Source: a virus. From it: a stretch of DNA of 25,879 nucleotides. Numbering within the stretch: the stretch's first letter is position 1; each line of letters starts with the position of its first letter. Position numbers and translations under genes: made by a program. Of this stretch, positions 6,345 through 25,245 are shown one piece after another. Where the stretch lies: positions 1-25,879 of IMG/VR virus record IMGVR_UViG_3300037493_003036, one strand, 5' to 3'. Below the pieces are notes generated by a model that was given only the letters and a program-made list of their open reading frames with translations, made no database searches and had not been told where the DNA came from.

Positions 6345-8035
6345 TAGGAAATCTCGATCGCGAGTTGTCGGAAGAGTGTTGCGACCTCTTCGGCCGTGAC
6401 GCGGCGGATCTCTTCGGCGATTTGTCCCGCGTCGCCGCCGGCGCCGTCGACATTGATCGTGATCGACGGCGCAAACGTCGTCGAGCCGCGGCCGCTTGCG
6501 GCGCTCGTCGTCGGCGTCGCGACCATCGCGCCGATCGCGGCTTGAGGCGCGCCGCTGTCAAGCCCTTGCTCAAATCCCGCGGTGACGTTCTCGCCGAGCG
6601 CGGCGAAGACGGTCGACGGCGAGTGAATGCCGAGAACGGTTTTGACGCCTTCGGGGAGCATTGCGACGAGCGTTTGAAAGCCCGAAAGGAGCGTCGCCCA
6701 TCCCGACGTGATCCCGCTCCAAAGCCCGGCGACGAGGTCGGATCCGATCGTCTTGAAGAGCGCAAACGCGCTCGACACGGCGGCGCCAAATTCGCCGAAG
6801 CCGCCGACGACGGAGTACACAAAATCGCCGATCGCGCTTCCGGCTTGAGCCGACCACACGAGGACCGTTTGATACGCGGTCACGACAAGCGAGATCGCGC
6901 CGGCGACGACGCCGAGAGCGGTCGCGGTGAGGATCAAAATCGTCTTGAACGACTCAAACATTTTTTTGGTTCCGTCGCCGTCGGCGGCGGTCTTCCCGAA
7001 GAGGCTCGAGATCGTGCCGAACGTCTCCGAAAAAACGCCTTTGAGTTCGGGCAAGAACGAAACGAAATCGAGGACGAGCGGCTCCATGCGCTTCGCGAAT
7101 TCGCCAAACGAATTCCCGATCCCTTCAAGCATTGCGACGATCGGTCTTCCCGTTTCGCTTGCGGGATCGAGCACGCCGGAAAGCGCCGCGACGAAGTGCT
7201 TAACGTTGTCGAGCGCCGGGCCGGTTTGCACGGCGTTGAAAAGCTCAAAGGGCCGCGACGTAAGCGACGACACGAGCCCGCCGAGCGACGTCGAGAGCTT
7301 GTCCATCATGCCGCCGAGCTCGCCGCCGCTGACGGTTTCTTGAAGGGCTTGAAGCGTCGCCGCGATCCCGGCCGTCGCGTCGATCTTTCCTTCGCTTTGC
7401 AGCTTTTTCGCGGCGTCCGCGGTGATCCCGAGCTGCGTTCCGAGAACTTCGTATACGCGCTTAAGCGGGATCCCGGCGCTTGCAAGCGAGTCCATGGACT
7501 CGCCGGTTAGTTTGCCTTGCGCCTTGATCTTGCCGAACGCTTCCGTCACTCGGTCCATGACCTCGGTCGACATGCCTTTGAGCGCGGCGAGGTCGCCGAC
7601 GCCTTTCATAACGATGTCGAGCTCCATCGGCTTGAAGCCGGCCGTGAGGAGTTTTTGGTACGTCTCGATGACTTGCGGCGTCTCGAAAGGCGTCTTTCCC
7701 GCAAATTCGACCGCCTGCTTATAGAGCTGATCCGCCTCTTGCTTCGATCCGACGAGCGTCTCGAGCGCGACCATCGTGTTTTCTTTGAAGACCGCGGAGT
7801 CGTAAGCGAATTTCGCCGTTGCTTTTGCGGCGTCGAACGCGACGCTTGCGACCTTTGCGAGAGCTTGCGCCGCAAGCGTGCCGACTGCGACGGCGGCGGC
7901 GCCGAATCCGCCGACGTTCTTTTGTGCGCCCGCGCCCGCGCTCGAGGTTCGGTCGAGCGCGTCGGCCGCCTTGTTCGCGGGTCCGCTTACCTGATCGGAG
8001 AGCGAGACAACAAATTCAAACGCGTTGCCCGCCAT
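6344..8035 (-). CDS. Tail tape measure protein
   Basis: This 563-residue protein is the longest tail gene. An Ala-rich N-terminus is followed by a phage tape-measure core (about 80-195) containing FKENTMVALETLVGSKQEAD, FAGKTPFETPQVIETYQKLL and LTGESMDSLASAGIPLKRVY, which are typical of this superfamily. A hydrophobic stretch lies at about 366-395. The C-terminal LGIHSPSTVFAALGENVTAG (468-487) is a motif seen at the end of many tape measures. The protein sets tail length and fills the tube lumen. At roughly 1.5 angstrom per residue the tail would be about 80-85 nm, an estimate. It starts 10 bases after the frameshifted chaperone stop, in the classic order. Confidence 0.92.
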   Translation of the reverse strand: MAGNAFEFVVSLSDQVSGPANKAADALDRTSSAGAGAQKNVGGFGAAAVAVGTLAAQALAKVASVAFDAAKATAKFAYDSAVFKENTMVALETLVGSKQEADQLYKQAVEFAGKTPFETPQVIETYQKLLTAGFKPMELDIVMKGVGDLAALKGMSTEVMDRVTEAFGKIKAQGKLTGESMDSLASAGIPLKRVYEVLGTQLGITADAAKKLQSEGKIDATAGIAATLQALQETVSGGELGGMMDKLSTSLGGLVSSLTSRPFELFNAVQTGPALDNVKHFVAALSGVLDPASETGRPIVAMLEGIGNSFGEFAKRMEPLVLDFVSFLPELKGVFSETFGTISSLFGKTAADGDGTKKMFESFKTILILTATALGVVAGAISLVVTAYQTVLVWSAQAGSAIGDFVYSVVGGFGEFGAAVSSAFALFKTIGSDLVAGLWSGITSGWATLLSGFQTLVAMLPEGVKTVLGIHSPSTVFAALGENVTAGFEQGLDSGAPQAAIGAMVATPTTSAASGRGSTTFAPSITINVDGAGGDAGQIAEEIRRVTAEEVATLFRQLAIEIS

Positions 8036-19097: not shown

Positions 19098-19805
19098 ATG
19101 TCGAGGAAATCAGTTGGAAAAATAGAGCTTTCGCGAAAGCACGTCGAGGCGGCGGCCAAGTTGTCGCCCGAAGCGGCTTCGTGGTTTTTGCAGTTTCTCG
19201 CGGCTTCGGTCGCGACGGTTACGGCGAAGCACGCCGGGTTAGCCTCAAGGGTGCCGCCGCTGATCCGCCGAGAGCTCGATCGCGCTTGGATTCTTGACGG
19301 CGGCGGCTGGTTTTTGCCGGCGGTCGCATGGTGCCGCGACATCGAAAAGACGCGCCTTGAATGGAGACGCGAAAAGGCCGTTCAGCGTAGACAAATGTCC
19401 GGGCCGGACTCCGGCCAAGACGTCCGGACCGGACACGCTCGATCGTGTCCGGACCGGACATTGAAAAGCGAAACGATTCCCGAGCCTTGCGAAAATGTCC
19501 GGGCCGGACAATCGCCTTATAGGATTGGATCACGCGCGCCGGGCTCTGATTTGTCTTCGGTTGCGTACGCGTTCCCCGACCTCGACGACACGACGACGAC
19601 GACGACGGATCCTAGTTTTGACGATTTGAACAAAGCGCCGTCGTCGTCGAGGGTCGAGCCTTCGGCGGTTCCGGATCCTAACGACGCGGCCGCGATGCTC
19701 GCCGCGCTCGAGGCGGCTCGGCGGCGGCTTTCGTCTGAGGATCGGCGCGCGATCGAAAAATTCGACACGACATCGCATGTTTCTACTTGCCTTCGGCTCG
19801 CCTAA
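19098..19805 (+). CDS. First early gene; unknown protein carrying an iteron-like array
   Basis: The 235-residue protein starts at ATG 19098 with GGTGGA just upstream. Residues 1-100 are helical and basic toward the end (EKTRLEWRREKAVQRR). Residues about 100-138 are a low-complexity linker encoded by the four palindromic repeats. Then comes an acidic part with a Thr run and a C-terminal helix AAAMLAALEAARRRLSSEDR. No known replication or repressor domain is recognised. It is the promoter-proximal gene of the rightward operon, opposite to the late promoter. Phage initiator genes such as lambda O hold the origin inside their own sequence, which makes an initiator role tempting, but that is inference. 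Confidence 0.7.
   Translation: MSRKSVGKIELSRKHVEAAAKLSPEAASWFLQFLAASVATVTAKHAGLASRVPPLIRRELDRAWILDGGGWFLPAVAWCRDIEKTRLEWRREKAVQRRQMSGPDSGQDVRTGHARSCPDRTLKSETIPEPCENVRAGQSPYRIGSRAPGSDLSSVAYAFPDLDDTTTTTTDPSFDDLNKAPSSSRVEPSAVPDPNDAAAMLAALEAARRRLSSEDRRAIEKFDTTSHVSTCLRLA
19396..19510. repeat. Four 15-bp palindromes at 25/25/50-bp spacing (iteron- or operator-like)
   Basis: Copies with consensus TGTCCGG-N-CCGGACA begin at 19396, 19421, 19446 and 19496. Two are perfect and two have one end mismatch. Copies 1 and 4 have G at the centre; 2 and 3 have A. They fall in all three codon phases of the host gene, so DNA rather than protein sequence is being kept. The 50-bp step equals one missing unit. Confidence 0.9.
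19590..19607. repeat. (ACG)6 tract encoding a Thr run
   Basis: Six uninterrupted ACG triplets encode Thr near the C-terminal third of the first early gene. A similar tract, (ACG)5 plus ACC at 19865-19882, opens the next gene. Confidence 0.8.
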
Positions 19806-19818
19806 CGTCTAGAGATAG
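19787..19818 (+). promoter_or_regulatory. Early promoter copy 1
   Basis: TTGCCT (19787-19792) and TAGAGA (19810-19815) are 17 bases apart. The block AACGTCTAGAGATAG (19804-19818) recurs at 23814-23828 with the same ACTTGC at the same distance upstream. It overlaps the end of the first early gene and lies 41 bases before the next ATG. Confidence 0.65.
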
Positions 19819-19843
19819 AAACACGAAGGCGACGGAAATCGCC

Positions 19844-19861
19844 AAGGAAAAAAGAGCCATG
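19844..19861 (+). promoter_or_regulatory. Conserved start leader, copy at 19844
   Basis: AAGGAAAAAAGAGCCATG fixes the start at 19859 rather than an in-frame upstream ATG at 19787 that lies inside the preceding gene and promoter. Confidence 0.75.
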
Positions 19862-23796: not shown

Positions 23797-23828
23797 TTGC
23801 GCGAAGCGTGTTCAACGTCTAGAGATAG
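23797..23828 (+). promoter_or_regulatory. Early promoter copy 2
   Basis: TTGCGC (23797-23802) and TAGAGA (23820-23825) stand 17 bases apart, within the same ACTTGC ... AACGTCTAGAGATAG frame as copy 1. It lies in the 119-base gap between 23744 and 23864 and would restart transcription for the recombination genes. Confidence 0.65.
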
Positions 23829-24019: not shown

Positions 24020-24141
24020 GGTTCGATCCGCCGCGCGACGGCTTGACCCGCGAAGCGGCTTTCGTCGTCGCGAGTTATGCGATCGCGTTTGTCGCGTTCG
24101 TCGTTCTCGCCGCGTGCGTCGTCGCGATGGTGTTCGGGTGA
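24016..24141 (+). CDS. Single-pass membrane mini-protein
   Basis: This 41-residue protein starts at an ATG overlapping the previous stop. After MRFDPPRDGLTREA comes an uninterrupted hydrophobic stretch (VASYAIAFVAFVVLAACVVA, about 18-37) long enough to cross the membrane once. It is short for a holin but could be one, or an inhibitor of superinfection. No endolysin is adjacent, so lysis is only a possibility. The next GTG overlaps its stop. Confidence 0.6.
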   Translation: MRFDPPRDGLTREAAFVVASYAIAFVAFVVLAACVVAMVFG

Positions 24142-24446: not shown

Positions 24447-24462
24447 AAGGAAAAGAGCCATG
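24446..24462 (+). promoter_or_regulatory. Conserved start leader, copy at 24446
   Basis: AAAGGAAAAGAGCCATG, identical to the copy at 20862, overlaps the end of the previous gene and fixes the start at 24460. Confidence 0.8.
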
Positions 24463-25245
24463 ACGAAGAAAACCAGCATCCAAAAAGCGGCGCCCGAAGG
24501 CGCGCTTTCGTTTTGCGAAGACAACGCGGCCGCCGTGCTCGAGAGAGTGATCGCTTCCGGCGACCTTTCGCGCCTCACGCCCGAGGAGCGAAATTCGCTG
24601 TACGTGCAAACGTGCTCGTCGCTCGGCTTGAACCCGATGACGCGCCCGTTTGAATACGTGACGCTCCAAGGAAAAATGGTCCTGTACGCGCGCAAGGACG
24701 CGACCGACCAGCTTCGCGCGATCCGCGACGTAAGCGTTTCGATTGCATCGCGCGAGAAGGTCGGCGAGCTGCTGATCGTGACCGCACGCGCGACGATCGG
24801 CGGCCGTTCCGACGAGTCGATCGGCGCCGTCGCGCTCGAGGGGCTTCGCGGCTCCGATCTCGCGAACGCTTATATGAAAGCCGAAACGAAAGCGAAGCGC
24901 CGCGTGACGCTCTCAATCTGCGGTCTTGGTTTCCTCGACGAGAGCGAGATCGGCGACGTCGGCGCCGCCCCGATGGCTCGACGACCGGCGATTATGTCCG
25001 CGGCCGGGCCGGTGCTCGGCTCGGCGCCGGTGCTCGAGTCCGTCGGCGAGATCGACACGTCGCGGATCGACACGCTCGCCGACGAGCTCGACGCGTGCTC
25101 GACGCTTGACGATCTCGCGAGAGCTTGGCCGAAGGTGAGCGCCGCGAACAAGCGCGCGCCGATGAGCGACGACGAAAAGGCTCGCCTGCAAGAGATCCGC
25201 GACCGCAAAAAGGCCGAATTTTCGGCGACGGCGGCGGCGAGCTGA
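24460..25245 (+). CDS. Probable RecT/Red-beta-like single-strand annealing protein
   Basis: The 261-residue protein starts within the conserved leader. Residues 40-90 read PEERNSLYVQTCSSLGLNPM, FEYVTLQGKMVLYARKDATD, a layout like annealing proteins (GLNP-T--- then a K-x-x-LYAR-DATDQL core). Residues about 135-165 have LANAYMKAETKAKRRVTLSI and GLGFLDESEIGD, conserved in phage proteins of this group. The C-terminal tail (about 200-261) is charged and variable, as in RecT-like proteins. A nuclease gene follows, forming the usual annealase/exonuclease pair. It probably anneals ssDNA during replication and repair. The family name rests on pattern and context. Confidence 0.7.
   Translation: MTKKTSIQKAAPEGALSFCEDNAAAVLERVIASGDLSRLTPEERNSLYVQTCSSLGLNPMTRPFEYVTLQGKMVLYARKDATDQLRAIRDVSVSIASREKVGELLIVTARATIGGRSDESIGAVALEGLRGSDLANAYMKAETKAKRRVTLSICGLGFLDESEIGDVGAAPMARRPAIMSAAGPVLGSAPVLESVGEIDTSRIDTLADELDACSTLDDLARAWPKVSAANKRAPMSDDEKARLQEIRDRKKAEFSATAAAS

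Follow-up and report, generated by a model that had tools for sequence, protein, structure and literature searches.

The window, by which we mean the whole stretch of DNA analysed, comprises the complete virus record (25,879 bp) of an uncultured phage with a contractile tail. Its minus strand carries the genes for terminase, portal, protease, capsid, sheath and tape measure, and the early genes, a DNA methylase among them, occupy the plus strand from 19,098 onward. For the early proteins encoded at 24.1, 24.4 and 25.3 kb the family search gave no match. By our own reading of the translations, the gene at ~24.1 kb may encode a small winged-helix-like protein, the one at ~24.4 kb (24461–25245) resembles a RecT-type annealing protein, and an exonuclease appears to start at 25.3 kb. 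The 24461–25245 protein precedes the exonuclease gene, has no significant match in Pfam or PHROG and is 83% conserved in the related phage G003, the exonuclease of which was confirmed by a profile search. Rfam and tRNA searches gave no match. The first early gene (19098) encodes a 235-aa protein, P0001, and contains an array of short palindromes. The features of this region are as follows.

19098–19805, plus strand: P0001, 235-aa early protein, proposed replication initiator; ortholog in G003 with 57% identity
19098–19397, plus strand: predicted winged-helix-like N-terminal domain, codons 1–100 (mean pLDDT 59; 68% identity to G003)
19396–19410, no strand: iteron copy 1, TGTCCGGGCCGGACT, one end mismatch
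19402–19416, no strand: palindrome GGCCGGACTCCGGCC, overlapping copy 1, letter-for-letter the same in G003
19421–19435, no strand: iteron copy 2, CGTCCGGACCGGACA, one end mismatch
19446–19460, no strand: iteron copy 3, TGTCCGGACCGGACA, perfect
19471–19485, no strand: empty 25-bp register between copies 3 and 4, 5/14 motif matches
19496–19510, no strand: iteron copy 4, TGTCCGGGCCGGACA, perfect, identical in G003
19755–19855, no strand: 100 bp with the lowest duplex stability in the window, G003 being weakest at this position as well; candidate unwinding element
19787–19815, plus strand: promoter-like TTGCCT-N17-TAGAGA at the gene end, recurring at 23797 and in G003

The palindrome array and its conservation

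The four copies of TGTCCGG-N-CCGGACA start at 19396, 19421, 19446 and 19496, two of them perfect and two with a single end mismatch, and their spacing of 25, 25 and 50 bp is confirmed, all as described in a sequence-only reading of this DNA. Allowing up to two mismatches, they are the sole matches to the 15-mer in the 25,879-bp record, so that the motif is not scattered elsewhere in the window; with three mismatches one further site appears, at 2658. All three codon phases are used (1, 2, 0 and 2 for copies 1 to 4, copies 2 and 4 being alike), and the peptide is therefore not the repeating thing. When the gene was recoded synonymously, weighted by codon usage, four copies arose in none of 20,000 trials, the maximum being three copies (at most one mismatch).

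A terminase search of viral contigs yielded the relative G003, a 34,789-bp phage contig, most of which is collinear with the window and ~75% identical to it in DNA sequence. As parts of its early operon are found at both ends, the contig is circularly permuted, and it is probably near complete. The order of this operon is methylase, winged-helix protein, annealing protein, exonuclease and RusA resolvase, followed by a protein with an SSB-like tail (DDDIPF) and then by lysis genes. At 7202–7747 of locus L209 of this contig, a 181-aa early protein with the end GFSDDDIPF, an SSB-like acidic tail, has no family match and could, judged by that tail, be a divergent single-strand-binding protein. The break in the early region (loci L209 and L210) lies beside a gene that is present as a pair of similar copies, one at each end (MIDLDEIERRA... 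and MINLDEIERRA...).

A relative might keep the protein and lose the repeats; this possibility, raised by the sequence-only reading, was put to G003, which retains the palindromes as well as the gene, the product of which is 57% identical. The palindromes are confined to the ortholog gene and keep the 25/25/50 spacing of the window, empty register included. Copies 3 and 4 are perfect in G003, copy 1 carries one inserted G and copy 2 has lost its outer bases. The central base of copies 2 and 3 differs between the two phages (A/G drift); in a symmetric site the central base is dispensable. Among codons for the same amino acid, 13 of 14 inside the palindromes are identical in window and G003, compared to 59 of 107 outside (one-sided Fisher p = 0.005); the case for conservation consists of one relative, the sole one found, and a small codon count. 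Taken together, repeated candidate sites are clustered in an early gene and are kept as DNA.

Two details proposed earlier fared less well. The larger inverted repeat made up of copies 2 and 3 exists in the window phage (19422–19440 / 19441–19459, 89%), but the pairing of the spacer is inexact in G003, where CACGCTCGATCGTG of the window is replaced by CATGCCGAAACGTG. Position 19471, suggested to be a lost or degenerate fifth unit, matches the motif at 5 of 14 positions (4 of 14 in G003), which is the chance level, and as the 50-bp gap is common to both phages, no unit was recently lost there.

Repeats in initiator genes of other phages

Among 2.9 million viral contigs the paired 15-mer was found, besides the window, only in G003 and in contig L006, which belongs to an unrelated phage. 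The L006 product matches the 'replication initiation protein' families PHROG 270, 9474 and 2447 and also 225 phage records, and its gene seems, as we read the translation, to lie upstream of a primase/helicase-like gene. The sequence for an N-terminal domain and for a basic helix (RERKRRVRQLARQ) directly precedes its two copies, which are 23 bp apart. The position of the array in the window gene matches that in L006: the N-terminal domain of P0001 ends in a long basic helix, RREKAVQRRQ, and the array follows it.

At the same spot after the basic helix, arrays of TGTCCGGACA are present in L213, which matches PHROG 2509 (E 7e-28) and PHROG 9474 (E 1e-21), and in its 62%-identical homolog L219. 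The repeats are translated in different frames in these two genes (MSGQVSGQ in L213, VRTISGQCPDNVRT in L219), which points to selection at the DNA level. Triple arrays of TGTCCGGACA occur seven times in the viral contigs; a clear initiator gene contains them only in L213, L217 is a satellite and the others have no assignment. With just one of the seven in a clear initiator gene, the motif alone is no proof. No arrays were obtained with a permuted palindrome as a control.

The run TTGCGAAAATGTCCGG is common to the last iteron of the window (19486–19501) and the first iteron of L219 (near 1235–1250), an unrelated initiator gene. A pattern scan of genome contigs gave mostly actinobacterial sites, for which an initiator-profile search had no significant match; most of the genome-contig sites were treated as chance or simple repeats, and the low-complexity contigs L005 and L007 were set aside. 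On a bacterial contig of a Rhodoblastus MAG (L112, 6953–7438), a small gene with TGTCCG repeats in several frames adjoins an AAA_25 helicase-like gene; this is perhaps another prophage origin. The comparison of the gene region with plasmids gave no DNA match.

Repeats inside the gene are frequent in annotated phage initiators: in 11 of 14 they exceed all 60 amino-acid-preserving recodings, whereas only one of six control genes of the window phage exceeds this null, due to a CGT microsatellite. The repeat units lie at 0.36–0.53 of the gene, mostly near its middle. Examples are the 22-bp periodic repeats in the initiator genes of the Arthrobacter phages Cupello and Galaxy and the 11-bp repeats in that of Gordonia phage Vendetta.

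The array as a candidate replication origin

We consider it likely that the array is the replication origin of the phage, located inside its initiator gene as in the lambda O type, with iterons bound by the encoded protein. The sequence-only reading had offered an origin or a repressor or partition site; its first part and the analogy to lambda O are borne out by the conservation, the in-gene position and the initiator genes carrying the same palindrome there, whereas a repressor or partition site fits less well, with no copies in the divergent control region and no repressor or ParAB gene recognised. As the binder it had named the protein of the gene hosting the array or the 24138 protein, and we infer that the former is the better candidate and the latter less so.

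P0001 is modelled with low confidence as helices, a strand pair, the long basic helix, a disordered and little constrained linker and short C-terminal helices. Searches in Pfam, PHROGs and PDB sequences, tblastn against phages and plasmids, profile comparison and a fold search revealed no homology, and P0001 has no sequence match to the family profiles PHROG 270, 2509 and 9474. A 19-column basic-helix profile match, equalled by one in 300 shuffles, was not taken as homology. The FWxxYPKKxGK-type C-terminal domain of the compared initiators is absent from P0001 and from its G003 ortholog. The predicted topology of P0001, in which a winged helix at the N-terminus precedes a basic helix and a linker with the repeats, agrees with these initiators, in a model that is weak (mean pLDDT 59) and with an empty fold search. 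P0001 appears to work like the PHROG 270/2509/9474 initiators, yet is not filed in their protein family. Because it shows neither initiator homology nor the usual C-terminal domain, we infer its role from other grounds: it is probably the binder of the iterons, as a dimer, given the arrangement of gene and sites in cis, which the known cases share, and an N-terminal topology that, as predicted, suits DNA binding.

According to the mechanism that we propose, symmetric dimers of the 235-aa protein would bind the four 15-bp palindromes via the N-terminal domain, and the bound complex would wrap or strain the DNA, whereupon nearby weak duplex would open. Opening might occur in the AT-richer 35 bp between copies 3 and 4, where duplex stability dips mildly, or in the weakest 100 bp just past the gene (19755–19855). 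The latter stretch lies ~245 bp past the array and coincides with the promoter-like site, and since this conserved element is located within it, the weak stretch may serve transcription instead. Directly beside the array there is no strong AT-rich tract. The complex would then recruit the host helicase, which we propose because the phage encodes no recognisable helicase: DnaB was not detected in the window or in G003, and the proteins scanned from both included no loader, primase or polymerase. A point against an origin is the 25-bp spacing, which is a non-integer number of helical turns. GC skew is uninformative and does not switch clearly at the array.

TTGC-N19-TAGAGA occurs at two early positions in each phage (19787–19815 and 23797–23825 in the window, 31689 and 4047 in G003) and is a candidate for a phage-specific early promoter family.

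The main rival is a cluster of operators or silencers, in which a regulator, either P0001 or the small protein encoded at 24138, binds the palindromes and thereby controls early transcription from an intragenic position. Symmetric 15-mers would suit a dimeric regulator, the sites are in the first early gene and a promoter-like element follows ~280 bp downstream. However, the sites begin ~300 bp inside the gene, the divergent intergenic region and the other early promoter-like site are without copies, no repressor gene was recognised and elsewhere the same palindrome marks initiator genes; we therefore regard this explanation as unlikely. Even less probable are hairpins that act in the early mRNA, for attenuation, stability or processing, and of which the DNA palindromes would be a by-product. 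In both phages the 140-nt transcript does fold better than shuffled sequences (z -4.3 and -5.9), but we set this aside because palindromes force folding, as is expected of any such array. In addition, fold partners differ between the two phages, at the paired centres A faces A or G faces G instead of a complement, and the extension of copies 2 and 3 is not preserved in G003.

We also regard a centromere-like partition or incompatibility site of a plasmid prophage as very unlikely: parS arrays are usually intergenic, whereas this one lies in a gene, and general scans of the proteins of window and G003 recognised no ParA/ParB-like gene. The resemblance is that parS-like loci are likewise clusters of short repeats, found beside repA in some mycobacteriophages (PMC7157519). 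A coding accident, in which a GC-rich gene happens to encode a repetitive linker peptide, would be in keeping with the disordered linker under low constraint, but is highly improbable given repeats that encode different residues in three frames, the outcome of the synonymous recodings and the spacing preserved in G003.

The in-gene origin thus gives a candidate origin for a phage group without a recognised replication gene. The 11 of 14 annotated initiators suggest in-gene DNA repeats as a pointer to the initiator where protein homology fails, and the TGTCCGG sites recurring in unrelated initiator genes make DNA recognition directly testable. More speculatively, and with considerable doubt on our part, P0001 and its ortholog might found a new phage initiator family that loads the host helicase without a phage loader, and the TGTCCGG half-site might be a recurring initiator word, common to sequence-unrelated initiators of unrelated phages, whether through a similar mode of DNA recognition by their winged helices or through a host protein that recognises the word.

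Comparison with known systems

In lambda, four 19-bp imperfect inverted repeats are located in the middle of O (PMC7466680). The window array resembles this origin and those of Stx phages (PMC7466680) in having four inverted-repeat iterons, dimeric sites, in the middle of an early initiator gene. It differs from lambda in the length of the sites (15 instead of 19 bp), in its empty register and in the lack of an AT-rich tract right beside the array; furthermore, P0001 has no detected homology to O, and no P-like loader or phage helicase was recognised in the window phage. SPP1 oriL lies inside gene 38 (PMC6316719) and is similar in that origin repeats are found within the gene for the origin-binding protein, gp38; SPP1 differs in that its repeats are direct, in having a second origin and in encoding a loader and a helicase of its own.

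The PHROG 2509, 9474 and 270 initiators (for example L213, L219, L006, Arthrobacter phage Galaxy and Gordonia phage Dardanus) have an N-terminal DNA-binding domain, a basic helix and a repeat-bearing linker, an architecture that is also predicted for P0001. L006 has the same 15-mer as the window, and L213 and L219 have its TGTCC/GGACA half-sites. P0001 has no detectable sequence homology to these initiators and no matching C-terminal domain, and their repeats are spaced by 23, 12, 11 and 22 bp compared to 25 bp in the window. Most likely, the array that the P0001 gene contains is an in-gene origin, a kind already known from lambda.
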